DNA of 37,183 nucleotides from Flavobacteriaceae bacterium (GTDB lineage Bacteria > Bacteroidota > Bacteroidia > Flavobacteriales > Flavobacteriaceae). Position 1 is the first letter of the stretch. Every line of letters begins with the position of its first letter. The stretch is from contig JALWUJ010000159.1 in the NCBI GenBank assembly GCA_027080135.1, positions 1 through 37,183 of the forward strand. Direction: 5' to 3'. Shown here one piece after another: positions 26,177-37,183 of the stretch. The position numbers and the translations under genes are program-made. Below the pieces are notes generated by a model, which did not search any database, had not been told where the DNA came from, and saw only the letters and a program-made list of their open reading frames with translations.

Positions 26177-27169
26177 TTATTTAAACAGGTGGTCTTTAAA
26201 CTTCAAAGCTACTTCCTCTAAAGCTTTAAAAACATCGACTGATTCATCACTGGTTACCATTTTCATTCGGTATTCTTTAAAATGCGGAATTCCTCTAAAA
26301 TAATTGGTATAATGTCTTCTGGTTTCAAAAACACCTAGTTTTTCACCTTTCCAATCTATCGCCATTTGCAAATGTCTTTTAGCGGCTTCAACACGTTCTT
26401 CCATCGTTGGTTGTACTAAGTGTTCTCCTGTTTTTAAAAAATGTTTTACTTCTCTAAAAAACCAAGGATTCCCAATACTTGCACGACCAATCATACAACC
26501 ATCAAGTCCATAATTATCTCGCATTTCTTTGGCTTTTTCGGGAGTGTTTACATCACCGTTTCCAAAGACAGGAATGTGCATTCGAGAGTTGTTTTTTACT
26601 TCGGCAATCGGAGCCCAATTAGCTTCACCCTTATACATTTGTTTGCGAGTTCTTCCGTGAATAGAAATCGCTTTACAACCTACATCTTGTAGTCTTTCTG
26701 CAACTTCAACAATGCGAATAGTATCCTCGTCCCAACCTAATCTAGTTTTTACGGTTACAGGAAGGTGGGTGTGTTTTACCATTGCTTCAGTTAAAGAAAC
26801 CATTAAATCCATGTCCTTCAATATTCCTGCTCCAGCTCCTTTAGAAACCACTTTTTTTACCGGACAACCAAAATTAATATCAATTATGTCTGGGTTAGAA
26901 GCTTCTACAATCTCCACACTGCGAAGCATTGATTCTAGGTTGGCTCCAAAAATTTGAATGCCAACAGGGCGTTCTTTTTTGTAGATATCCAACTTCATAA
27001 CGCTTTTTTGAGCATCACGAATTAATCCTTCCGAAGAAATAAACTCGGTATAAACCACATCAGCACCTTGTTCTTTACACAAAGTCCGAAATGGTGGGTC
27101 GCTTACATCTTCCATTGGTGCCAGTAACAAAGGAAAGTCTGGCAATTCTATGTTACCTATTTTAATCAT
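26177..27169 (-). CDS. tRNA-dihydrouridine synthase, DusB type
   Basis: FMN-dependent reduction of uridines in tRNA. From ATG 27169 the protein has 330 residues. Signatures are LLLAPMEDVSDPPFR, the catalytic C102 in INFGCPVKKVVSKGAGAGIL, VTVKTRLGWDE, ISIHGRTRKQMYKG and VFGNGDVNT with DGCMIGRASIGNPW. An upstream in-frame TTG (27190) is rejected because a -7 box lies between it and the ATG. The stop is 6 bases from the end of the convergent permease gene. Confidence 0.94.
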   Translation of the reverse strand: MIKIGNIELPDFPLLLAPMEDVSDPPFRTLCKEQGADVVYTEFISSEGLIRDAQKSVMKLDIYKKERPVGIQIFGANLESMLRSVEIVEASNPDIIDINFGCPVKKVVSKGAGAGILKDMDLMVSLTEAMVKHTHLPVTVKTRLGWDEDTIRIVEVAERLQDVGCKAISIHGRTRKQMYKGEANWAPIAEVKNNSRMHIPVFGNGDVNTPEKAKEMRDNYGLDGCMIGRASIGNPWFFREVKHFLKTGEHLVQPTMEERVEAAKRHLQMAIDWKGEKLGVFETRRHYTNYFRGIPHFKEYRMKMVTSDESVDVFKALEEVALKFKDHLFK

Positions 27170-27177
27170 AATCCCTG

Positions 27178-27185
27178 CAAAAATA
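27178..27185 (-). promoter_or_regulatory. -7 box of dus
   Basis: TATTTTTG on the - strand (27185 to 27178) is a full match and ends 8 bases before the ATG at 27169, so the leader would be only about 3-5 bases. It supports ATG 27169 over TTG 27190. Confidence 0.45.
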
Positions 27186-27237
27186 GACAAATAAATAAAG
27201 TCTTTTTATTACATTAGTTGTTTAATATTTTTCCAAT

Positions 27238-28497
27238 ATGAAAATAAATTACTTTCTTTTATTTCTACTTGCAATTCCGTTATTTATCAATGCTCAAACT
27301 TACGAAAATGACCGCCTTTTAACAGTACGCTCAAAAGATTCGGTAAACGAGAAGCCCAGAATGAAAGGTGCTTTAGGGGTTAATATGAAGCTAAATGGGT
27401 ATTTTGATGTTTATGGAGGTTTACAAAATAGCGAAACCTTTAATATTGGTCAAATTCCTGTTTTTGGAACCGATGATTCTTCTATTTTTAAAATGGACTT
27501 ACACCAAACGCAAATTTTTATTCAAGGAGATTTTATACAAAAAAACGGAGAAAACATAAAAGCTGTTGTCGAATTCGATTTTTGGGGAGGTAGCGGGCAT
27601 ATGCGTTTACGAAAAGCTTATGTAGAAACCAACCATTGGCAAATAGGACAAAACTGGAATAATTTTGGAGATGAAGCAATTTGGCCAAATGTAATGGAGT
27701 GGGAAGGACCTCCTTCTGGAGTTTGGGCTAGAACACCACATATTAAATATTTTGGGAATTTTAAAAATGAAAATTGGATTTATGAAGCAAGTTTAGAAGC
27801 ACCAGTAATAGATTATATAGCCTTAGGAGATATAGAACCTTTGGTCGAAGAAGACAATCAAGTAGCTCCAGACCTAACCACAGCCTTAAAATATAAAAGA
27901 GATTGGGGACATTTAAGGTTTTCGTCTGTGTTACGAAATGTTCGTTATAAATTAGATGGAGAAACCAATGATTTTTTAGGTTTTGGTTTTACTTTTAGTG
28001 GAATTTATGTGACAGAAAACAAGAATAATTTTCAATTTCAATTAGTAGGAGGAAAAGGAATTAACGCTTATTTAACTAGTATAGCAGGCTTGGGTTATGA
28101 CGGTTACCCAACCTCAAACGGAGATATTAACTCAACCCCATCTTATGGAGGTTGGGCTTCTTATGAATATTTTTTTACTCCTAAATTTCATTCCAATATA
28201 GTGTTTGGTTTTACTGAATATTTCTTCGACAACATGGAACGTTTTATTTTATCTGAAGAACTTCCTAATGATCCAATTGATGACACATTAATTTTAAATG
28301 GAGATTATTCGGGAGAACATTATTATGGTATTTTTAATTTAATGTATGAGCCTTTCGAAAGAATGACGTTAGGATTGGAATTAGATTACGGTGTTAAAAA
28401 AATTGATTTTAGTGGTTTTGCCAATAATACTTTTATAGATGATAGTAAAAACAGAGATGCCATGCGAATTAGCTTTGGTTTTATGTTTTATCTATAA
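27238..28497 (+). CDS. Outer-membrane porin, DcaP-like
   Basis: A predicted beta-barrel porin of 419 residues. Residues 1-20 are a signal peptide ending in FINAQ. The mature protein has alternating amphipathic strands and the segments LNGYFDVYGGLQ, AVVEFDFWGG, RLRKAYVETNHWQIGQNWNNF and MEWEGPPSGVWARTPHIKY, which resemble the DcaP family of trimeric porins for small organic anions. The protein ends in an aromatic residue pair plus Leu (GFMFYL), usual for barrel termini. The octaheme cytochrome lipoprotein follows after 41 bases on the same strand and is likely co-transcribed. DcaP assignment is by pattern recognition; the substrate is unknown. Confidence 0.8.
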   Translation: MKINYFLLFLLAIPLFINAQTYENDRLLTVRSKDSVNEKPRMKGALGVNMKLNGYFDVYGGLQNSETFNIGQIPVFGTDDSSIFKMDLHQTQIFIQGDFIQKNGENIKAVVEFDFWGGSGHMRLRKAYVETNHWQIGQNWNNFGDEAIWPNVMEWEGPPSGVWARTPHIKYFGNFKNENWIYEASLEAPVIDYIALGDIEPLVEEDNQVAPDLTTALKYKRDWGHLRFSSVLRNVRYKLDGETNDFLGFGFTFSGIYVTENKNNFQFQLVGGKGINAYLTSIAGLGYDGYPTSNGDINSTPSYGGWASYEYFFTPKFHSNIVFGFTEYFFDNMERFILSEELPNDPIDDTLILNGDYSGEHYYGIFNLMYEPFERMTLGLELDYGVKKIDFSGFANNTFIDDSKNRDAMRISFGFMFYL

Positions 28498-28538
28498 TTT
28501 GCCTTTTTTATTTTACATTCGCTTTTTGAAGCCTTTTT

Positions 28539-30722
28539 ATGTCTAAATATTTTCAAATTTCAATTATCGTTTTTGCCTCTTTATTGCTTTTTTCTTGTAA
28601 TTCAGATTCAAAAAAAGAAGCCTATTCCAAAATTACCAAAACCGAATTTCATGATAAAGATGGGTTTGTAGGAGATAAAACTTGTACCAAATGCCATCAA
28701 AAAGAAGTGGATCTTTGGAAGGGTTCTCACCACGATTTGGCTATGCAAATTGCAAACAACGAAACCGTTTTAGGCGATTTTAATAATGTAGAAATTACCT
28801 TAGATGAGGTTCATTATTTCTTCTTTAAAAAAGGAAATGATTTTCTAGTTCGTGTAAAAGAAATTGATGGTTCAGAAAAAGAATATAGAATATCTTATAC
28901 CTTCGGTGTTACTCCACTTCAACAATATTTAGTCGATTTTGATAAGGGAAGAAAACAAGTGCTTAGAGTAACTTGGGATGTAATTAAAAAACAATGGTAC
29001 CATCAATATAAAGGCGATAAAATTCAACCACACGATTGGCTGCATTGGACCAAAACTGCTCAAAATTGGAATACTATGTGTGCCGAATGTCATTCTACTA
29101 ATTTAAAGAAGAACTACTTGGTGGAAGAAGATGCCTTCCACACCACTTGCTCATTAATTAATGTAAATTGTGAGAGTTGTCACGGTCCAGCCGAAAAACA
29201 TGTGGCTTGGGCTGAAAACCCTTCAGAAGATAAAAACACCTATATTTTAAAAGGAAAAACACAAAAAGACCAACTAAATCTTTGTGCTTCTTGTCATTCC
29301 AGAAGGGTTCGGCTTACCGAATATATGAAACCTGGGACTAAATTTGAAGACCAATATATGGTTCAGAATCTTTCGACTAATTTTTACCATCGAGACGGAC
29401 AAATAAACGATGAAGATTATGTCTATGGTTCTTTTCTTCAAAGTAAAATGTATGCCGAAGGAGTTAAATGTAACGACTGTCACAATGCACATAGTTTAAA
29501 ACTGAAATTTGAAGGAAATAAACTTTGTCTTCAATGCCATATTCCTGCAAATTACGAAACCTCAACCCATTATTTTCATAAAAAAAATACCGAAGCGAGT
29601 TTGTGTATTAACTGCCATATGACGGGTAAAAACTATATGGGAAACGATTTTAGACGCGATCATAGTTTCCGAATTCCTAGACCAGACCAAAGTGATAAAT
29701 ATGGAACTCCAAATGCTTGTATTGGCTGTCATACCGAAAAATCCAACAAATGGGCAGCCAATGTAATAAAGGATAAATTTGGGAATAAAAGAGCTCCGCA
29801 TTTTTCTGATGCCTTACTATTAAGCAGTCAAAACAATCTTACGGAACAGCAAAAAAAAGAGTTAAACGCATTTATAAACGACCTCAGATTTCCAGATATT
29901 GCCAGAGCAACTGTGATTGAAAATTTGGACTTTTATACTGCTGAAGATTATAAAACATTAATGGAAGCACTTCAAGATTCTTCTGCTCAAGTGCGATATC
30001 ATGCTTTAATGAAATTTAGAAATGTACCACCACAAGAACGCTTGTCAATTGCTTTAAAAGCAATGAAAGACTCTACTAGGTTGGTGCGAATTGGAGCTGC
30101 ACAATTGGTTATTGGTTTGGACGAAAATACTTTAAGCGGAATAGATAAAAAGAACTTTATCAACTCCCGAAGTGAATTGGAAACCATGTTGTTTACAAAT
30201 GCAGATTTTTCTACAGGTAGATTGCAATTAGCCGATTATTATTTTCAGAATAACGATATTAAAAACGCTATTAAAAATTACGAAATGGCATTGAAAAAGG
30301 ATAGTTTATTGCTTCCTGTTTTTTCAAATTTAGCTACTGCTTATAATATAGATAAGCAACCTAAAAAAGCAACCGAAACCCTTGATAAATGGATTGTTTT
30401 AGAGCCAAATAATAGTCGTCCTCACTACCTAAAAGCACTTGTACATTTTGAAAATAAGAATAATGAAGAGGCTGTTTCGGAATTAAAAAATGCCATTAAA
30501 TTAAACCCAAACGACAGTAGAGTCTTATATAATTTAGCCACTTTTTACTATCAAGAAAACAAGGAATTAAAAGCTGCTGAAAACTATATTAAAAAGGCTT
30601 TAACTATTGAAACTAACAATCAAGATTTTAAATATTTATTAGCTTTAATTTATCAAAAACAAGGAAAAATTATTCAGGCCAATGTCATTATGCAAGAGCT
30701 AAATGCTAACAAGAAACAATAG
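28539..30722 (+). CDS. Octaheme c-type cytochrome lipoprotein with HEAT and TPR domains
   Basis: An exported redox protein of 727 residues. The lipobox LLLFSC puts the lipidated cysteine at C20. Eight CxxCH haem sites are visible at C49, C181, C211, C249, C311, C330, C356 and C394 (for example CESCHGPAEKH and CNDCHNAHS), with none of the CxxCK type that marks NrfA. The spacing and the GDKTCTKCHQKEVDLWKGSHHDLAMQ start recall cytochrome c554-like domains. Residues ~430-545 look like HEAT repeats (SSAQVRYHALMKFRN), and ~560-725 hold four to five TPRs (ALKKDSLLLPVFSNLATAYN). Fusion of a multihaem domain to TPRs occurs in uncharacterised Bacteroidota and Planctomycetes proteins. The preceding porin is the likely operon partner. 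The reaction is unknown. Confidence 0.88.
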   Translation: MSKYFQISIIVFASLLLFSCNSDSKKEAYSKITKTEFHDKDGFVGDKTCTKCHQKEVDLWKGSHHDLAMQIANNETVLGDFNNVEITLDEVHYFFFKKGNDFLVRVKEIDGSEKEYRISYTFGVTPLQQYLVDFDKGRKQVLRVTWDVIKKQWYHQYKGDKIQPHDWLHWTKTAQNWNTMCAECHSTNLKKNYLVEEDAFHTTCSLINVNCESCHGPAEKHVAWAENPSEDKNTYILKGKTQKDQLNLCASCHSRRVRLTEYMKPGTKFEDQYMVQNLSTNFYHRDGQINDEDYVYGSFLQSKMYAEGVKCNDCHNAHSLKLKFEGNKLCLQCHIPANYETSTHYFHKKNTEASLCINCHMTGKNYMGNDFRRDHSFRIPRPDQSDKYGTPNACIGCHTEKSNKWAANVIKDKFGNKRAPHFSDALLLSSQNNLTEQQKKELNAFINDLRFPDIARATVIENLDFYTAEDYKTLMEALQDSSAQVRYHALMKFRNVPPQERLSIALKAMKDSTRLVRIGAAQLVIGLDENTLSGIDKKNFINSRSELETMLFTNADFSTGRLQLADYYFQNNDIKNAIKNYEMALKKDSLLLPVFSNLATAYNIDKQPKKATETLDKWIVLEPNNSRPHYLKALVHFENKNNEEAVSELKNAIKLNPNDSRVLYNLATFYYQENKELKAAENYIKKALTIETNNQDFKYLLALIYQKQGKIIQANVIMQELNANKKQ

Positions 30723-30791
30723 GGTTTAAGCCAAGAAGTATTTACCAATAGTATAAGTAATAACCCAAAATACTGTTTTTACAGATAGATT

Positions 30792-30923
30792 TTAGTTTTG
30801 TGAATAAGGGTTTCGTTTTTCCTTACATTCTTCTTCATTAAATGTTTCAATTAAACCTATTAATGTTCTTAAAAAAAAGTAGAAGGTGTTGTATCTGTTT
30901 TTTTTAAACTGTTCAAAATACAA
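30792..30923 (-). pseudogene. Possible 3' remnant of a lost gene
   Basis: On the - strand 43 codons are open up to a TAA at 30794-30792, without ATG. The reading ends FLRTLIGLIETFNEEECKEK then RNPYSQN, a mixed hydrophobic/charged helix-like composition unlike random AT-rich sequence. Its upstream end runs into the terminator hairpin, so it cannot be an intact gene. No family is recognised. Confidence 0.3.
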
Positions 30924-30951
30924 AAGCCGAATAAAAAATTATTCGGCTTTT
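30922..30951. terminator. Bidirectional terminator between cytochrome and sulfatase genes
   Basis: A 13-bp perfect stem (aaaagccgaataa 30922-30934 with ttattcggctttt 30939-30951) has a loop of 4 A. U-rich ends exist in both directions. It lies 23 bases past the stop of the sulfatase gene (-), and about 200 bases past the cytochrome gene (+). Confidence 0.85.
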
Positions 30952-30973
30952 AAAAATATTAAAACTGTCTGTT

Positions 30974-33406
30974 TTAATGACTCATCATTGCTCGTTTAGC
31001 TTCAGCTTCTAAATTTACATAAGGTGTTCCTTCAACTGTAACTCCTACAAAGTCAATTTTACCATTATTAAATTTGCTTGGGGATGGATATAATCCACTA
31101 ACAGCATCAGCACTATCATAGCCAACACAAAGACCATCTCCAGACAAGGTAAATTTAGCTGGCTGTGTTCTCATCGATCCTTCTGCAACTGCCTTACCAT
31201 CAATATAAAGTGTAGTATTACCTAAAGATTCGCCCTTATCTCCGGCTTTTTCTCTTTTAAACTCCATACCTATTGTATGCTTTCCAGGTGTAAGAGTTAT
31301 GTTTGATTCAAAAACTTGTTCTGGACTAATTCCTAAGAAATTATATACATAGTACAACTTATTGTTTTTAATAAATAGGGTGTGCCCTCCAAAGCGAGAT
31401 CCGTGAGCAAATACAACTCCTGAAGTTTTATTTGTTGTCTCAACATTTGCTAATATTTTATACGAACGACCTCTTACATTAACTGCATTACCCTCTGGTA
31501 CAGCTGCAGCATAAGGATAATAAATATATCTATCTCTTGCTGGTTCTTGCGAAGGTCTCTCCACTCCAAGAACTTCAGCAGCACTTCTGTCATCTAATGG
31601 TAAAACGTTATTTTTTTCAGCTTCAACAAACCAAGCGTCGATTAATTCTTTAAGTTTTTCAGGGTTTTCTTTTGCTAAATCTTTTGATTCTGATCTATCA
31701 ACAGCAACGTGATATAATTCCCAATCATCTTCATCAAATTTACCTACACCAGAAAGTGGAGCGTGAACAGCTGATGCTTTCCAACCATCTTTCCAGATTC
31801 CGCGAGAACCTAGCATAGCGTAATATTGAACGTGCTTTTGTGTAGCATCATTAGGCTTAGCATCGAAAGTATAAGCCATAGATACTCCGGATAATGGTAC
31901 TTGCTTAACTCCGTTAAATTCTTTTGGCATTTCAATTCCTATCACTTCTAATAAAGTAGGAACAATATCTACCGAATGATGGTATTGATTTCTAATTTCA
32001 CCTTTGGCTTTAATGCCTTTAGGCCATGAAATAACTAATGGGTCGTTAGTACCACCTGCATATTGCGAATAACGCTTAAACATTTTAAACGGTGCAGAAA
32101 AAGCAGATGCCCATCCTGTTGGATAATGCTCATAAGTTTCAGGACCTCCTAAAACGTCTAAATATTTCATATTTTCAGATAATTCGTCAGGGAAATTATT
32201 GAAAAATTTATTTTCGTTTACAGAACCGTTTGGAGAACCTTCTCCAGATGCACCATTATCGGCAGCGTATAATACAATTGTATTCTCTAGCTGTCCGCTT
32301 TCTTCTAAATAGTCGATTACTCTACCTACTTGTGCATCGGTATATTCAGAAAAACCTGCATATACTTCTGCCATTTTTGCGAATAATTTCTTTTCATCAT
32401 CGTTTAAAGAATCCCAAGGGCGAACCATATCTATGGCTTGAGCCATATCTTCTCGCATGGGGTTCATTGGTGTGTTTACGGTTCCTTCCGGAAGTATTCC
32501 TTTTTCAATCATACGACCAGTTACCCATTCTCTATACGCATCGTAACCTTCGTCAAACTTTCCTTTATATTTAGCAATATATTCTTCTGGTGCGTGGTGA
32601 GGTGCGTGATTTGCACCTGGGTTGTACCACATATACCAAGGTTTTGAAGGGTTGGTAGCTTGTTGGTCGCGTAACATACCTAAGGCGTGATCTGCTAGGT
32701 CTTTTGAAAGGTGGTAGCCTTCTTCAAATTCTTTTTCTACAAAGTGATTGTCTTCAATTAAATCTGGATACCATTGGTTGGTTTCGCCACCAATAAAACC
32801 GTAAAAACGATCCCATCCCATTTGTAATGGCCATTGTTTTTTACTTCCTCCTGAAGCTACATCTTGCTCTGGTACATTGTGATTTTTTCCTATCCAAAAA
32901 GTACTGTATCCGTTTTCTTGCAAAATCTTAGAAAGCGGAGCCACTTCTGGACCCATTCTTCCGTTCGATCCTGGAAAACCATCTGCAGCTTCTGTAATAG
33001 CTGCCATCCCATTTAGATGATGATTTCTACCTGTTTGAATAGTTGAACGTGTTGGAGAACATAAGGCTGTTGTGTGCCATTGGGTATAAGTTAAACCATT
33101 TGCAGCTAACTTATCCATGGTTGGCATATTAATAGCTCCTCCGTATGGAGACCAAGCTCCTAGACCTGTATCATCATACAAAATGAATAAGATATTTGGT
33201 GCTCCTTTTGGGGCAGACTTTGGGGTATATGCCGACCAATCTGATTCTGAATCTCGAATATCTAAGGCTATTTTTCCTTTGAATTTTGTAGCACTACTTT
33301 CATTAGTAGTGGCTTCTTTTTTGTTTTGATTACAACTAATTATTGTAGTTAAAAAAAATCCTAAAACAACAGATTTTAGGATGAAAGATAATTTTTGATT
33401 TTTCAT
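30974..33406 (-). CDS. Secreted sulfatase lipoprotein (S1 family, CSPTR type)
   Basis: Hydrolyses a sulfate ester through a formylglycine made from C116 in the motif TALC-S-P-T-R. The 810-residue protein has a lipobox TIISC with C25 lipidated. Further alkaline-phosphatase-superfamily marks are the metal site NILFILYDDTGLG (D78, D79), GRNHHLNG, WIGKNHNVPE and YAADNGASGEG. About 200 C-terminal residues (from GNAVNVRGRSYKIL) look like a beta-sandwich typical of large arylsulfatases similar to subfamily S1_4. Subfamily is by pattern only; the substrate is unknown. It lies 57 bases after the Crp-family gene on the same strand and may belong to that operon. Confidence 0.92.
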   Translation of the reverse strand: MKNQKLSFILKSVVLGFFLTTIISCNQNKKEATTNESSATKFKGKIALDIRDSESDWSAYTPKSAPKGAPNILFILYDDTGLGAWSPYGGAINMPTMDKLAANGLTYTQWHTTALCSPTRSTIQTGRNHHLNGMAAITEAADGFPGSNGRMGPEVAPLSKILQENGYSTFWIGKNHNVPEQDVASGGSKKQWPLQMGWDRFYGFIGGETNQWYPDLIEDNHFVEKEFEEGYHLSKDLADHALGMLRDQQATNPSKPWYMWYNPGANHAPHHAPEEYIAKYKGKFDEGYDAYREWVTGRMIEKGILPEGTVNTPMNPMREDMAQAIDMVRPWDSLNDDEKKLFAKMAEVYAGFSEYTDAQVGRVIDYLEESGQLENTIVLYAADNGASGEGSPNGSVNENKFFNNFPDELSENMKYLDVLGGPETYEHYPTGWASAFSAPFKMFKRYSQYAGGTNDPLVISWPKGIKAKGEIRNQYHHSVDIVPTLLEVIGIEMPKEFNGVKQVPLSGVSMAYTFDAKPNDATQKHVQYYAMLGSRGIWKDGWKASAVHAPLSGVGKFDEDDWELYHVAVDRSESKDLAKENPEKLKELIDAWFVEAEKNNVLPLDDRSAAEVLGVERPSQEPARDRYIYYPYAAAVPEGNAVNVRGRSYKILANVETTNKTSGVVFAHGSRFGGHTLFIKNNKLYYVYNFLGISPEQVFESNITLTPGKHTIGMEFKREKAGDKGESLGNTTLYIDGKAVAEGSMRTQPAKFTLSGDGLCVGYDSADAVSGLYPSPSKFNNGKIDFVGVTVEGTPYVNLEAEAKRAMMSH

Positions 33407-33463
33407 TTAAAATGTTTTTTTTATAATCAGTAAAGTTAAAACCATTTAAAATGAAAAGAAACA

Positions 33464-34054
33464 TCAATTGATAGCTTTTTGTTTTTTCTTTATTCTATGG
33501 ATGGTTAATGGAGTGATTCCTAAAAAACTAGCAATATGTTTATCGAATGTGGTTTCTATTAAAATGGGGTTCCACTTTATTAAATCTAAATATCGTTCTT
33601 CGGGTGTCATGGTTACAAAAGTATTTAACCTGTAAGAAAGTGTAAGGATAATTTCTTTTAAAAAATCTAGATAAAAATTCATTATTTTAGGGTTTTTATA
33701 TCCCAAAGTTTCCAATTCGCTAATATTAAATTTTAGAAAATGAACTTCACCAATGGACTCAATATTTAGCATTTGAGTCTCATTACTAAATATTCTTGCA
33801 TCGCCCATTAAATGTCCTTCAGCTCTTATAAAATTATTTATTTCTTGTCCTTTCTCGTTTACACTATAAGCACGAGTAACTCCTTTTAATAAAAAGATTA
33901 AGTTCTTATTTGTTTTACCACTTTTTAGAATTATTTGTTTATTTTTTGCTATCTTATATTCAGTAATTGATAAGAATAAATCAATTACTTTTTCCTCCAA
34001 GTTTGGGAAATAGTTGATAATTAAATTTTTAATATCTGAATTTGATAATCTCAT
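33464..34054 (-). CDS. Crp/Fnr-family transcriptional regulator
   Basis: A cytoplasmic DNA-binding regulator of 196 residues. The N-terminal ~115 residues form a cyclic-nucleotide-binding-like beta-barrel (KNKQIILKSGKTNKNLIFLLKGVTRAY). The dimer helix follows, then a short helix-turn-helix at the end (IASFLGITPLTIHRIKKKQ). The cAMP phosphate-binding residues of E. coli Crp are not evident, as is usual in this Bacteroidota group, so the ligand is unknown. It sits 19 bases after the HAD lipoprotein gene and 57 before the sulfatase, and is a candidate local regulator of the sulfatase locus. Confidence 0.87.
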   Translation of the reverse strand: MRLSNSDIKNLIINYFPNLEEKVIDLFLSITEYKIAKNKQIILKSGKTNKNLIFLLKGVTRAYSVNEKGQEINNFIRAEGHLMGDARIFSNETQMLNIESIGEVHFLKFNISELETLGYKNPKIMNFYLDFLKEIILTLSYRLNTFVTMTPEERYLDLIKWNPILIETTFDKHIASFLGITPLTIHRIKKKQKAIN

Positions 34055-34073
34055 TTAAATATTCAATAGGGGT

Positions 34074-35111
34074 TTATTCTAATTCAAAAGGATAAATTAC
34101 CTTCCAATCTTTTTTCATATCGATTACCGTCCAACCATCTTTTTGAGCTTGGTCTAATCCTTTATCTAATCTTCCAATGTGCGAATCACGATCATATGCC
34201 CATTCTCTTTCGTCGTCGGTGTGATGTAAATATAACATTAAACTTTTGTGTTTGTTGGAAGCTGCCCATTGCATCATTTGTAAATCGCCATCAGAATTAC
34301 CAGAAGAGAATACTGGTTTTTTACCAATTATTTTCTGAATGTTTAGTGGTTTCCCTTCTTTATCGTCAATAAAATCGAGTGCTGGTACTCTTTTAATAAC
34401 TGGGTTTCCGTTGTTATAATCGAATTCGGTTTTTATTCTTGAACCTATAATTTGTTCTTCTGGGATTCCATAAATTTCCATAACAAAAGCACGCATAAAA
34501 TCAACTCCACCTCCTGAAACTATATAGGTTTTAAAATCGTTGGCTCTTAAATACTGAAGCAATTCTAACATGGGTTGATACACCATTTTATCATAGCCCA
34601 CATTTTTGGTTGGATGTTTTGCGGTAGCAATCCAATCTTGAACATCTTTTTTAAATTCTTCGGTAGTATTTCCAGAATGTGTTGCCATTATCAATTGGGC
34701 TAATCCGTGTTCGCCTTGCTTTTTCAACTCTTCCATATCGTTTTCTAAAACGGCTTTAAAGGGTTGGTCGTTTTTCCATTCTGGATGGTCTGAAGCCATA
34801 GCTTTTACTCTGTCAATCGCAAAAAACAATTGAAAATAAGCAGGTTGTTCTGCCCATAAATTACCATCGTTATCAAAAGTAGCTATCCGATCTTTAATAG
34901 GAATAAAGTTTTCGTTTTTAGAATTGGTTACTTCATTAACATAAGCGATGATGTTCTTTTTTGAAGCCACCTTATTCCAAGAAGGAAGTGGATCTTTTAC
35001 CTCTTGTTTTGGGCTTTCTTTTTGTTGACTTTCTTTAGTCTTTGTTTCACAAGAAATAAAAATCAAACTAAAAAAAATGATTACTAAACTTGTTGTTTTC
35101 AGGTATTTCAT
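34074..35111 (-). CDS. Exported HAD-superfamily phosphatase-like lipoprotein
   Basis: The 345-residue protein has a lipoprotein signal LIFISC with C21 lipidated, so it acts outside the cytoplasm. HAD motifs are motif I IATFDNDGNLWAEQP (nucleophile D80, acid D82), the motif II region YIVSGGGVDFMRAF, motif III lysine (probably GKKPVFSSG) and motif IV GNSDGDLQMMQWA. Motif I has DNDGN where the common form is DxDGT. A Lys/Glu/Gln-rich linker follows the lipid anchor. It is 26 bases after the outer-membrane protein gene and 19 before the Crp-type regulator, so an operon is likely. HAD proteins of this type are often seen near arylsulfatases; the substrate is unknown. Confidence 0.87.
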   Translation of the reverse strand: MKYLKTTSLVIIFFSLIFISCETKTKESQQKESPKQEVKDPLPSWNKVASKKNIIAYVNEVTNSKNENFIPIKDRIATFDNDGNLWAEQPAYFQLFFAIDRVKAMASDHPEWKNDQPFKAVLENDMEELKKQGEHGLAQLIMATHSGNTTEEFKKDVQDWIATAKHPTKNVGYDKMVYQPMLELLQYLRANDFKTYIVSGGGVDFMRAFVMEIYGIPEEQIIGSRIKTEFDYNNGNPVIKRVPALDFIDDKEGKPLNIQKIIGKKPVFSSGNSDGDLQMMQWAASNKHKSLMLYLHHTDDEREWAYDRDSHIGRLDKGLDQAQKDGWTVIDMKKDWKVIYPFELE

Positions 35112-35137
35112 AATTTATTATAATTCTATAATATTTT

Positions 35138-35680
35138 TTAAAATCTTCTTGCCATTCCGAAGCCTAAATTCCAAGAATTATAGGCGTTAACTTTTAAATC
35201 GTTTGTTAGACTAGCTACAATTTCCCAATTGTCGTGGAGAATGCGATGACTATATTCGACTCCTGCTTTGATAAGAAACAGGTTTTCTTCTTTAGAAAAT
35301 TCACCTCCTGCTCCTAAGACTAAACTAAAGTTTTTTATAGGTTTAAACATTCCAACAACCGCAGATGCAATTGGTGTACTTCGTTCTAATTCAGTTCCAT
35401 CGCTATGTTCTACAACAAAGCTTTCTACAATAATATCATTGTGTAAACCGATTGCCCAACGTTCGCTGATCTCAAAATTATAGTCGATACCCCAAGAGGG
35501 TACCGAAATCCATTTTTTGTCTTCTCCTTTTATCCCTTCTGCTATTTGTGTGTGACTTACTAAAACGGCAATGGAGTGTCTTTTTTCTGATTCTTCTTCA
35601 CTTACTTCATGTTCTTTTTCTTGTGCATTAACACAAATTGTAAATAGTAAAAGTAAGCTACTTAATAATATATTTTTCAT
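35138..35680 (-). CDS. Predicted outer-membrane beta-barrel protein
   Basis: From ATG 35680 the protein has 180 residues: a signal peptide ending in CVNAQ (about residue 20), an acidic stretch (EKEHEVSEEESEKRH), then about eight amphipathic strands (WGIDYNFEISERWAIGLHND ... SLVLGAGGEFSKEE ... WNLGFGMARRF). The C-terminal Phe is typical of outer-membrane barrels. An in-frame ATG 63 bases upstream (35743) would add 21 residues and runs through the terminator hairpin, so it is rejected. It heads the OMP-HAD-Crp gene run. Function is not recognised. Confidence 0.8.
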   Translation of the reverse strand: MKNILLSSLLLLFTICVNAQEKEHEVSEEESEKRHSIAVLVSHTQIAEGIKGEDKKWISVPSWGIDYNFEISERWAIGLHNDIIVESFVVEHSDGTELERSTPIASAVVGMFKPIKNFSLVLGAGGEFSKEENLFLIKAGVEYSHRILHDNWEIVASLTNDLKVNAYNSWNLGFGMARRF

Positions 35681-35696
35681 ACTTATTATAGTAAAC

Positions 35697-35723
35697 AAAA
35701 GGCTGAGGGTATTCTCAGCCTTT
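35697..35723 (-). terminator. Terminator after the right-hand sulfatase gene
   Basis: The arms aaaggctgag (35698-35707) and ctcagccttt (35714-35723) surround a 6-base loop. On the - strand TTTTG follows. It lies 22 bases past the sulfatase stop and before the OMP start at 35680. The U-run is short, so read-through into the OMP-HAD-Crp genes is possible. Confidence 0.7.
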
Positions 35724-35744
35724 AATGATAATAATAATTTCAAA

Positions 35745-37183
35745 TTAATGGCTTTTCATTACCATTTCTTCAATTTGTTTTTCAACTTTTGAAAGACTCC
35801 AATCACCGGCTGTTTGGCTTGGTGGATAGTCCTTAAAAGTACTTAAGAAATTATAAGCATATCCTTGAATTGCTATTAGAATATATGCTCTGTCAATATA
35901 CCAATCATAATAAGTATTTGATCCTTCTAAAGCTTTTTCATATGGATCTCTCCGAAGATTAAAAAGGTATGGTGCTCTTAATTCTACAAAAGGCTCTAAC
36001 CAAATCTGTAATTGATCCGCTCTATTTACTTGAAACATTGCTTTCCAATCGCCATATCGCAGTGCGGCAATCTGTCCAGCATCATTAACATAAATAAACC
36101 CTTCTCTTGGTGATTCTTCTGTTGCACCAGTCAAATAATCTAATTGATTTACACCATCAATATAATTTTTATAAAACCTTCCGTTCATAGTCACCCCTTT
36201 TTTAGCCTTAGCAACAATATCTGGCTCGCCAGCAATTGCAGCGAAGGTAGGTAACCAATCTTCATGAGCAACAATTCCATTTAAAGTCTTATTAGCTGGG
36301 AAATGTCCGGGCCATCTTACAAAAGTAGGAACACGATACGCACCTTCCCATGAACTGTTTTTTTCTCCGTGAAATGGAGTGGTTGCAGCATCTGGCCATG
36401 TATTAAAATGTGGGCCATTATCTGTAGAGTACATAACTACAGTATTTTCTGAAATACCTAATTCATCCAATAAATCGAGTAATTCGCCTACATGTAAATC
36501 GTGTTCAACCATACCGTCTCCATATTCATCTTGTCCAGATATACCACGATGCTCTTCTTTTACATGGGTTCTAAAATGCATACGAGTACCGTTCCACCAC
36601 ACAAAAAATGGTTCGCCAGATTTTACGGTTTCTCTTATGAATTTTTTTGCTGCAGCTACTGTTTCATCATCAATAGTTTCCATTCGTTTTTTTGTAAGCG
36701 GACCTGTATCTTCAATACGTTGTCCTCCTTTTCCATCTGCCCAAGAATGTATAACCCCTCTAGGGCCAAATTTCTCTTTGAAAGTCGAGCCATCTTTTAA
36801 AACCATATCGCCTGGATAATCCATGTTTTCTGGCTCTTCTTCGGCATTTAAATGGTAAAGATTTCCAAAAAATTCGTCAAACCCATGATTGGTAGGTAAA
36901 TGTTCATCAAGATCGCCTTCATGATTTTTTCCAAACTGACCTGTGGTATAGCCTTGGCTTTTCAAAACCGTTGCCATAGTTAAATCCGACTCTTGCCATC
37001 CTTCTTTAGCACCTGGCATACCTACTTTAGTCATGCCAGATCGAACAGGAACGCTACCGCTAATAAACGCAGCTCTACCAGCAGTACAACTTTGTTGCCC
37101 ATAATAATCTGTAAACGCGATACCTTCACTGGCAATACGGTCTATATTGGGAGTCATATATCCTAACATACCACGATTGTTAT
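35745..37183 (-). CDS. Secreted-type arylsulfatase (CTAGR type), N-terminus beyond window
   Basis: The reading frame is open to the window edge, so the start and signal peptide are not visible. At least 479 residues are seen. The formylglycine site is QQSC-T-A-G-R, a CxAxR motif, about 40 residues into the visible part. Other sulfatase marks are GYTTGQFGKNHEGD, FFVWWNGTRMHFRTH and YSTDNGPHFNTWPDA. The C-terminal part contains LRRDPYEKA and ends VMKSH. It shares family with the 30974 sulfatase, but the sequences are clearly different, so they are not a recent duplication. A terminator follows, then the OMP-HAD-Crp-sulfatase genes on the same strand. Confidence 0.92.
   Translation of the reverse strand, partial: NNRGMLGYMTPNIDRIASEGIAFTDYYGQQSCTAGRAAFISGSVPVRSGMTKVGMPGAKEGWQESDLTMATVLKSQGYTTGQFGKNHEGDLDEHLPTNHGFDEFFGNLYHLNAEEEPENMDYPGDMVLKDGSTFKEKFGPRGVIHSWADGKGGQRIEDTGPLTKKRMETIDDETVAAAKKFIRETVKSGEPFFVWWNGTRMHFRTHVKEEHRGISGQDEYGDGMVEHDLHVGELLDLLDELGISENTVVMYSTDNGPHFNTWPDAATTPFHGEKNSSWEGAYRVPTFVRWPGHFPANKTLNGIVAHEDWLPTFAAIAGEPDIVAKAKKGVTMNGRFYKNYIDGVNQLDYLTGATEESPREGFIYVNDAGQIAALRYGDWKAMFQVNRADQLQIWLEPFVELRAPYLFNLRRDPYEKALEGSNTYYDWYIDRAYILIAIQGYAYNFLSTFKDYPPSQTAGDWSLSKVEKQIEEMVMKSH

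Follow-up and report, generated by a model that had tools for sequence, protein, structure and literature searches.

What does an octahaem cytochrome do when it is encoded directly behind an outer-membrane porin, and do the two genes form a unit? The question is raised by contig JALWUJ010000159.1 (assembly GCA_027080135.1) of a Flavobacteriaceae bacterium, whose whole 37,183-nucleotide stretch we call the window. On its + strand a 419-residue porin (27238..28497) is followed, after a 41-bp gap (28498..28538), by a 727-residue c-type cytochrome (28539..30722). A first-pass annotation had placed both open reading frames correctly and had read them as an envelope redox module. The cytochrome is a member of a large, widespread family without a curated name, and in draws of genomes its link to sulfatases, which was not part of that annotation, is a stronger general signal than its pairing with the porin. 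We favour, with about an even chance of being right, an octahaem respiratory protein of the c554/OcwA/MccA group, located in the periplasm and anchored to the envelope, fed from quinol, with a docking arm and sulfatase neighbours, which the porin joined in the window's lineage. The parts are of known kinds; what may be new is their combination and the sulfatase link. The literature searched, judged largely from titles and abstracts, gave no match for the porin-cytochrome combination, for a multihaem cytochrome in Bacteroidota together with Rieske and TPR proteins or with Rieske and cytochrome b, for a c554-type multihaem protein with HEAT repeats, or for the sulfatase link, and the portion of PMC8528874 available to us, from the octahaem/tetratricopeptide literature, does not describe the window cytochrome.

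The window cytochrome has exactly eight CxxCH motifs on the + strand: CTKCH (haem 1, residue 49; 28683..28697), CAECH (haem 2, 181; 29079..29093), CESCH (haem 3, 211; 29169..29183), CASCH (haem 4, 249; 29283..29297), CNDCH (haem 5, 311; 29469..29483), CLQCH (haem 6, 330; 29526..29540), CINCH (haem 7, 356; 29604..29618) and CIGCH (haem 8, 394; 29718..29732). None of 5000 residue shuffles had eight motifs, the maximum being one. The motif search bears out the earlier count of eight CxxCH without CxxCK. Membership of the NrfA/ONR nitrite reductases was rejected, as the protein has no CxxCK and all eight motifs are CxxCH. The protein begins with a signal/lipobox-like sequence (..LLFSC20); the LFSC lies at 28587..28598 (+), Cys20 is invariant in a 15-row alignment, and from it we infer a lipoprotein.

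Above their cut-offs, Pfam families matched in the protein are Cytochrome_C554 (PF13435; 45 bits against 20.8), Paired_CXXCH_1 and TPR families. HEAT_2 stays below its cut-off of 27.7 bits in the window protein (20.1 bits) and exceeds it in a relative (33.9 bits in L122). An AlphaFold2 model built from 92 sequences (predicted local distance difference test, pLDDT, 90; predicted template modelling score, pTM, 0.87) has an alpha-solenoid from about residue 403 on; an earlier model from 15 rows had a poor haem core, with a pLDDT of 73. The HEAT/TPR half proposed at first pass is thus upheld, by TPR families above cut-off and by the modelled solenoid, and Pfam, the model and the fold search place it at residues 403-726 (29745..30716, +). 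We read this half as a probable docking surface.

The underlying 92-row alignment holds the window, 14 further loci and 77 named loci, three named loci having been dropped because their core was the same as that of another locus. CxxCH is found in 91 or 92 of the 92 rows for seven motifs and in 90 for the last, where the other two rows have one or two extra residues; a CxxCK string, on which no haem-site check was made, occurs somewhere in a single row. Outside the motifs, histidines 65, 221, 318, 344, 347 and 375 are kept in 91-92 rows and histidine 421 in 87, so these six and a seventh are too few for the eight distal positions. The only cysteines that reach 80% conservation in the 92 rows are those of the haem motifs. 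The copper ligands of MccA are cysteines. Because no cysteine is conserved outside the haem motifs, we do not file the window cytochrome as MccA. We read the protein as a respiratory octahaem cytochrome of the periplasm that is anchored to the envelope. Its haem 2 may have an open site, for which it is a candidate by analogy to c554, OcwA and MccA.

A scan of genome contigs gave at least 520 confirmed relatives of the cytochrome, and the best 80, those closest to the window, were kept as named loci. These 80 are mostly from Bacteroidota, with others from Balneolota, Calditrichota, Thermodesulfobacteriota, Acidobacteriota, Fibrobacterota, Chlamydiota and Pseudomonadota. Neither of the two family members compared with NCBIfam received a name from any of its models. 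In L264 and L265 the octahaem cytochrome is followed on the same strand by a second, seven-haem relative, giving tandem copies.

The haem domain of the window protein (residues 43-412; 28665..29774, +) is related to OcwA of Thermincola potens. Among solved structures, a profile of 54 haem domains matched OcwA 6i5b (E 4.1e-20), 6qvm (9e-15), 6r2q (2e-7) and c554 (9e-7), and more weakly 28pb (9e-6), 5ze8 and MccA 4rkm (1e-4 each). The eight motifs align with OcwA haems 1-4 and 6-9, window haems 5, 6, 7 and 8 falling on OcwA haems 6, 7, 8 and 9. With only eight motifs and no counterpart of OcwA haem 5 (no motif lies between haem 4 at residue 249 and the next at 311), a nine-haem OcwA equivalent was rejected. 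According to the portion of PMC6703420 available to us, OcwA haems 1-4 match c554 and haems 5-9 match NrfA, with haems 2 and 5 open. The window protein resembles OcwA in its c554-like first haems, its NrfA-like last haems and a beta-sheet insert between haems 1 and 2, modelled here as beta strands at residues 84-155 (28788..29003, +), the place of the OcwA beta-sheet domain (PMC6703420, same portion). OcwA differs in having nine haems and a three-helix bundle, whereas the window protein has eight haems and a HEAT/TPR solenoid. The first-pass annotation had held that strong homology of the cytochrome to a family with a proven reaction would count against its reading. We found none close enough for a reaction to be transferred: the nearest solved relative is OcwA, with a profile E-value of 4e-20.

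MccA, the octahaem sulfite reductase (4rkm), has eight haems in the order of OcwA minus haem 5, by the loss of which it may derive, and shares the beta-sheet domain with OcwA; it also holds copper (PMC6703420, in the part available). Judged from the alignments and the model, the window cytochrome has this MccA-type haem order (OcwA 1-4, 6-9) with a beta insert. It differs in its weak sequence match to MccA (1e-4), the best stretch of which is the haem 1 region, and in belonging to a family without a conserved extra cysteine for copper. Cytochrome c554 (1bvb/1ft5) is like the window protein in the Pfam match and in the alignment of the haem 1 region, but has four haems and no solenoid. The NCBIfam decahaem families GSU2203 and DmsE match in part around haems 2-4; membership was rejected, the scores being far below the cut-offs (55.5 against 325 bits and 45.7 against 192.2 bits).

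To find which genes accompany the cytochrome, we used two draws of 395 genomes each, one from the order and one from the phylum, which share genomes. They provided 42 cytochrome loci chosen regardless of their neighbours (the window, four loci of the earlier set and 37 newly fetched). In 11 of the 42, a sulfatase was matched by profile no more than 600 bp from the estimated cytochrome gene, against about 0.28 expected (P ~1.5e-15, with loci taken as independent). Counted by genus the figure is 6 of 28 against 0.27 expected (P ~1e-7). Expected counts were derived from the number of PF00884 matches per genome (0 to 39) in the genomes concerned. The count was made on six-frame profile matches because the open reading frame map failed for the GC-rich-looking L259, where no cytochrome was called; maps of open reading frames by length covered 41 of the 42 loci. 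Within flanks of up to 1.5 kb a sulfatase is present at 12 of the 42 cytochrome loci versus one of 33 porin control loci. The window's own sulfatase, 634 bp away by estimate, misses the 600-bp rule, yet it is the next gene, about 250 bp away by the ends of the open reading frames. The cytochrome-adjacent sulfatases belong to several subfamilies. Among the 80 named loci, sulfatases are direct neighbours in four (L077, L083, L106 and L116), which is rarer than in the draws.

In the window a minus-strand block (30974-37169) converges on the cytochrome and encodes two sulfatases, a cNMP-binding (Crp-like) regulator, an HAD protein and a small possible outer-membrane protein. The convergent neighbour is an 810-residue sulfatase with a CSPTR motif (30974..33406; Pfam, 201 bits). 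The HAD-type protein (34074..35111), identified by Pfam and locus maps, is followed in coordinate order by the small protein (35138..35743), possibly an outer-membrane barrel, which has no Pfam match and a weak YaiO-type NCBIfam match (E 0.099). The second sulfatase, with a CTAGR motif (35745..37169; Pfam, 144 bits), is open to the contig edge and has close relatives near the cytochrome in L043, L046, L054 and L105. L043 and L054 also have the sulfatase-HAD-small protein group near the cytochrome, and parts of the group are present in L044, L047, L049, L069 and L105. The window's genome, 81% complete, has four PF00884 matches, among which the two window sulfatases should be counted, the first of them standing among the matches listed. 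Both sulfatases lie within 6.5 kb in the window. Between the cytochrome and the convergent sulfatase the minus strand carries a terminator-like hairpin (30921..30952); it is no evidence alone, as two such sites were found in 27000-31100 against 2.3 expected from shuffles.

Sulfur genes (TauE/SafE, rhodanese) or uronate genes (UxuA, mannonate oxidoreductase, KduI) are found in fewer loci. A Crp-type regulator, a TauE/SafE exporter family protein and a metallo-beta-lactamase-rhodanese protein lie near the cytochrome in L073 (= L241), L075 and L098, and rhodanese/thioredoxin-like blocks in L048 and L106. The sulfur genes were identified by Pfam on the L098, L106 and L048 copies and elsewhere by similarity. 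Two further arrangements were observed. In L052 (6052-12105), DUF1800 and DUF1501 genes follow the cytochrome directly on the same strand, and a gene for an FGE-sulfatase-domain protein lies directly upstream. In L242 (10069-17295), two large sulfatases upstream of the cytochrome, on its strand, enclose a 129-residue open reading frame and a DUF1254/DUF1214 protein.

Of the three direct neighbours counted in the named loci, a Rieske gene is the commonest, found in 12 of the 80 against four each for porin and sulfatase. It lies directly upstream of the cytochrome on the same strand, with gaps between open reading frames of -11 to 12 bp. In 10 of these loci cytochrome b comes before the Rieske gene; the other two begin at a contig end. 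These identities come from Pfam on four proteins, from L105, L136 and L137. All 12 loci fall in one 21-row clade of the cytochrome tree, rooted by midpoint only, that spans Bacteroidota, Calditrichota and Pseudomonadota and also holds rows without a Rieske gene. In the loci of the two draws, Rieske/cytochrome b genes stand beside the cytochrome in one of 42. Cytochrome b and Rieske neighbours in one clade point to quinol-fed electron transfer, and quinol is the probable electron source of the cytochrome in one clade or more. At the window the operon with cytochrome b and Rieske genes that marks a c subunit of a bc-type complex was not found. Neither the window's genome nor 13 relatives from the flavobacterial order encode a match to Pfam Cytochrome_B (PF00033; 0 of 14). 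NrfD-family proteins are present in all 14, which we take to be consistent with alternative complex III. Similar to the operons of the one clade, the anammox Kuste4569-4574 complexes combine cytochrome b and Rieske proteins with an octahaem c subunit, as described in the available part of PMC12954380; they differ in having an HAO-like octahaem protein and an NAD(P) oxidoreductase, a comparison made by description and not by sequence.

The porin had been called DcaP-like at first pass, and this stands as a remote relation. A profile of 10 close relatives, two divergent rows being left out, matches the DcaP crystal structure 6eus (E 4e-7), and Pfam DcaP (PF19577) is matched by all 10 members (E up to 0.1, best 3.9e-7). 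The curated cut-off is, however, not reached by the window porin (15.6 bits against 27), which we regard as a remote relative of the DcaP porins (6eus; Acinetobacter DcaP1-4). Of the four Acinetobacter proteins, DcaP3 is needed for growth on di- and tricarboxylates, according to the part of PMC12338516 available to us. Since a DcaP-family porin has this role, an accessory role for the window porin is sensible, and it looks like a recurrent accessory of the cytochrome rather than half of a fixed machine. In one case (G032, L057) a porin homologue with an in-frame TAG lies about 2.3 Mb from its cytochrome on the same contig.

Within the genus, 19 genomes were compared. The haem domain is present in seven, and a C-terminal cytochrome fragment in G010 makes eight carriers. 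The porin is present in five genomes, all among these eight, and three carriers have no porin (G008, and G012 and G013, where the cytochrome occupies the window's chromosomal place). Porin and cytochrome genes are direct neighbours in the window, G005, G009 and G017; in G010 the contigs leave adjacency undecidable, as the porin runs off one of them and another starts within the cytochrome, with its last third. G005, G009 and G017 carry the pair at a chromosomal place other than the window's, so the two genes were kept together through a move. A further porin copy in G017 is truncated and lies at the end of a contig.

More widely, we examined 95 cytochrome loci, three of them repeats of the same contig, for an adjacent porin. 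Eight have one (the window, L045, L046, L047, L063, L068, L113 and L087, the last with the porin downstream), all on the same strand with a gap below 105 bp. On the tree of all 92 rows the porin label requires four changes, and at least three, forced by well-supported branches, when compared with Rieske and sulfatase rows only. In L113, from Aestuariibaculum sp. M13, the porin is 60% and the cytochrome 40% identical to the window's; the sister locus L112 has a cytochrome 89% identical to that of L113 and the same flanks without a porin. In L087, from a Cyclobacteriaceae metagenome-assembled genome (MAG), the porin is a clear DcaP (74.5 bits) and only 27% identical to the window porin. The L113 pair ends a uronate-catabolism run (L113:2868-15806) encoding UxuA, D-mannonate oxidoreductase, LUD/Fe-S proteins and KduI, followed by a GH2 beta-galactosidase.

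In the order draw the cytochrome is encoded in 19 of 395 genomes, the porin in 21 and both in six (one-sided Fisher p 1.9e-4, kinship ignored). The corresponding numbers for the phylum draw are 30, 13 and three (p 0.067, kinship ignored). In both draws the two genes are adjacent only in the window's genome, and none of 33 other porin loci has a multihaem neighbour within 1.5-kb flanks. An obligate two-gene module was therefore rejected, on these draws and on G012 and G013. What remains of the envelope redox module is a pair of genes on one strand that recurs in the genus, in Aestuariibaculum M13 and in the Cyclobacteriaceae MAG, and whose gap in the window is free of terminator-like sites on the sense strand; against it stand the porin-free cytochromes, the rarity of adjacency in the draws and the commoner other neighbours. 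The staying together of the pair in relatives, on which the first-pass annotation had staked its reading, is thus contradicted in part: the pair recurs but is not fixed. The search for further conserved neighbours that it had proposed yielded sulfatases in the draws and cytochrome b with Rieske in one clade, both more frequent than the porin. Porin and cytochrome are probably on one transcript in the window.

That the adjacency is a matter of chance or position, with no shared function, is a serious though unlikely alternative. The cytochrome kept in place without a porin in G012 and G013, the adjacency confined to the window's genome in the draws and the 33 other porin loci without a multihaem neighbour all agree with it. 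The four label changes on the tree, the two chromosomal locations at which the genus has kept the pair, the short same-strand gap in eight of eight pairs and the co-occurrence in the draws speak against it. A different view would make the cytochrome a pure conduit for electron transfer, including extracellular electron transfer, with an OcwA-like role and no chemistry of its own. Its nearest solved relative, OcwA, is proposed to be a surface terminal reductase (PMC6703420, in the part available). The eight haems and the cytochrome b-Rieske neighbours of one clade would also suit a conduit. Acidic residues after the lipobox cysteine are a surface-export signal. Three or more of them are found in none of the 59 lipobox-like rows of the 92, a crude count of little weight in which some matches are clearly false. 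The window has no other multihaem gene among its open reading frames of at least 80 residues from 22000 on, and the family occurs sporadically (19 of 395 in the order draw), and we consider the conduit improbable.

More improbable still, in our estimate, is a terminal enzyme that would reduce or oxidise a sulfur oxyanion such as sulfite, acting with the sulfatases and sulfur genes, for which the porin would let in the anion or ester. The MccA-like haem order, the sulfatase adjacency and the TauE/SafE, rhodanese-type and Crp-type regulator genes near the cytochrome in a few loci are what suggest it. Sulfatases, however, release sulfate and not sulfite; without a conserved extra cysteine there is no MccA-type copper site; the sulfur genes occur in only a few loci; and the adjacent sulfatases are of different subfamilies. 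The quinol-fed respiratory protein that we favour has several points against it as well. The window cytochrome has no gene for quinol oxidation next to it, and of the 80 named loci, which are the nearest to the window, 60 show no porin, Rieske or sulfatase gene directly beside the cytochrome. The 600-bp rule behind the sulfatase counts was chosen after the maps had been seen, with gene ends approximated and gene number set at one per kb. The Foldseek and VIA-align lists of PDB matches for the 92-row model are filled by TPR chains; among the matches listed there is no OcwA, HAO, NrfA or c554 entry, which is not evidence against these folds.

The data establish the genes, the haem motifs, the relationship in sequence, the neighbour statistics and the repeated changes of the pairing. 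For the direction of the electrons, the open haem-2 site, co-transcription, the subcellular place and the solute of the porin, we infer the following. In the respiratory protein that we favour, the haem wire of the cytochrome would be supplied from the quinol pool. In one clade the electrons would come by way of a cytochrome b/Rieske complex, and in flavobacteria probably by way of alternative complex III or another carrier. The electrons would pass to an acceptor at or near the cytochrome's own haem 2, or to a partner docked on the HEAT/TPR arm. The DcaP-type porin, probably joined to the cytochrome in one transcript, would let small solutes, which may carry carboxyl or sulfate groups, into the periplasm. 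A broader idea, which we hold to be a long shot, is that the octahaem HEAT/TPR family is a redox partner of the extracytoplasmic sulfatase systems of Bacteroidota, acting on a sulfur oxyanion or on an aryl or uronate product that has been released, and that it has repeatedly recruited porins and quinol-oxidising complexes as modules.

In the sea, much carbon is stored in sulfated algal polysaccharides, of which flavobacteria are major degraders. A multihaem cytochrome beside sulfatases far above expectation would suggest that the degradation of sulfated polysaccharides includes a redox step or an electron sink so far unrecognised, and the cytochrome b-Rieske operons offer a direct, testable route for the electrons of the cytochrome.

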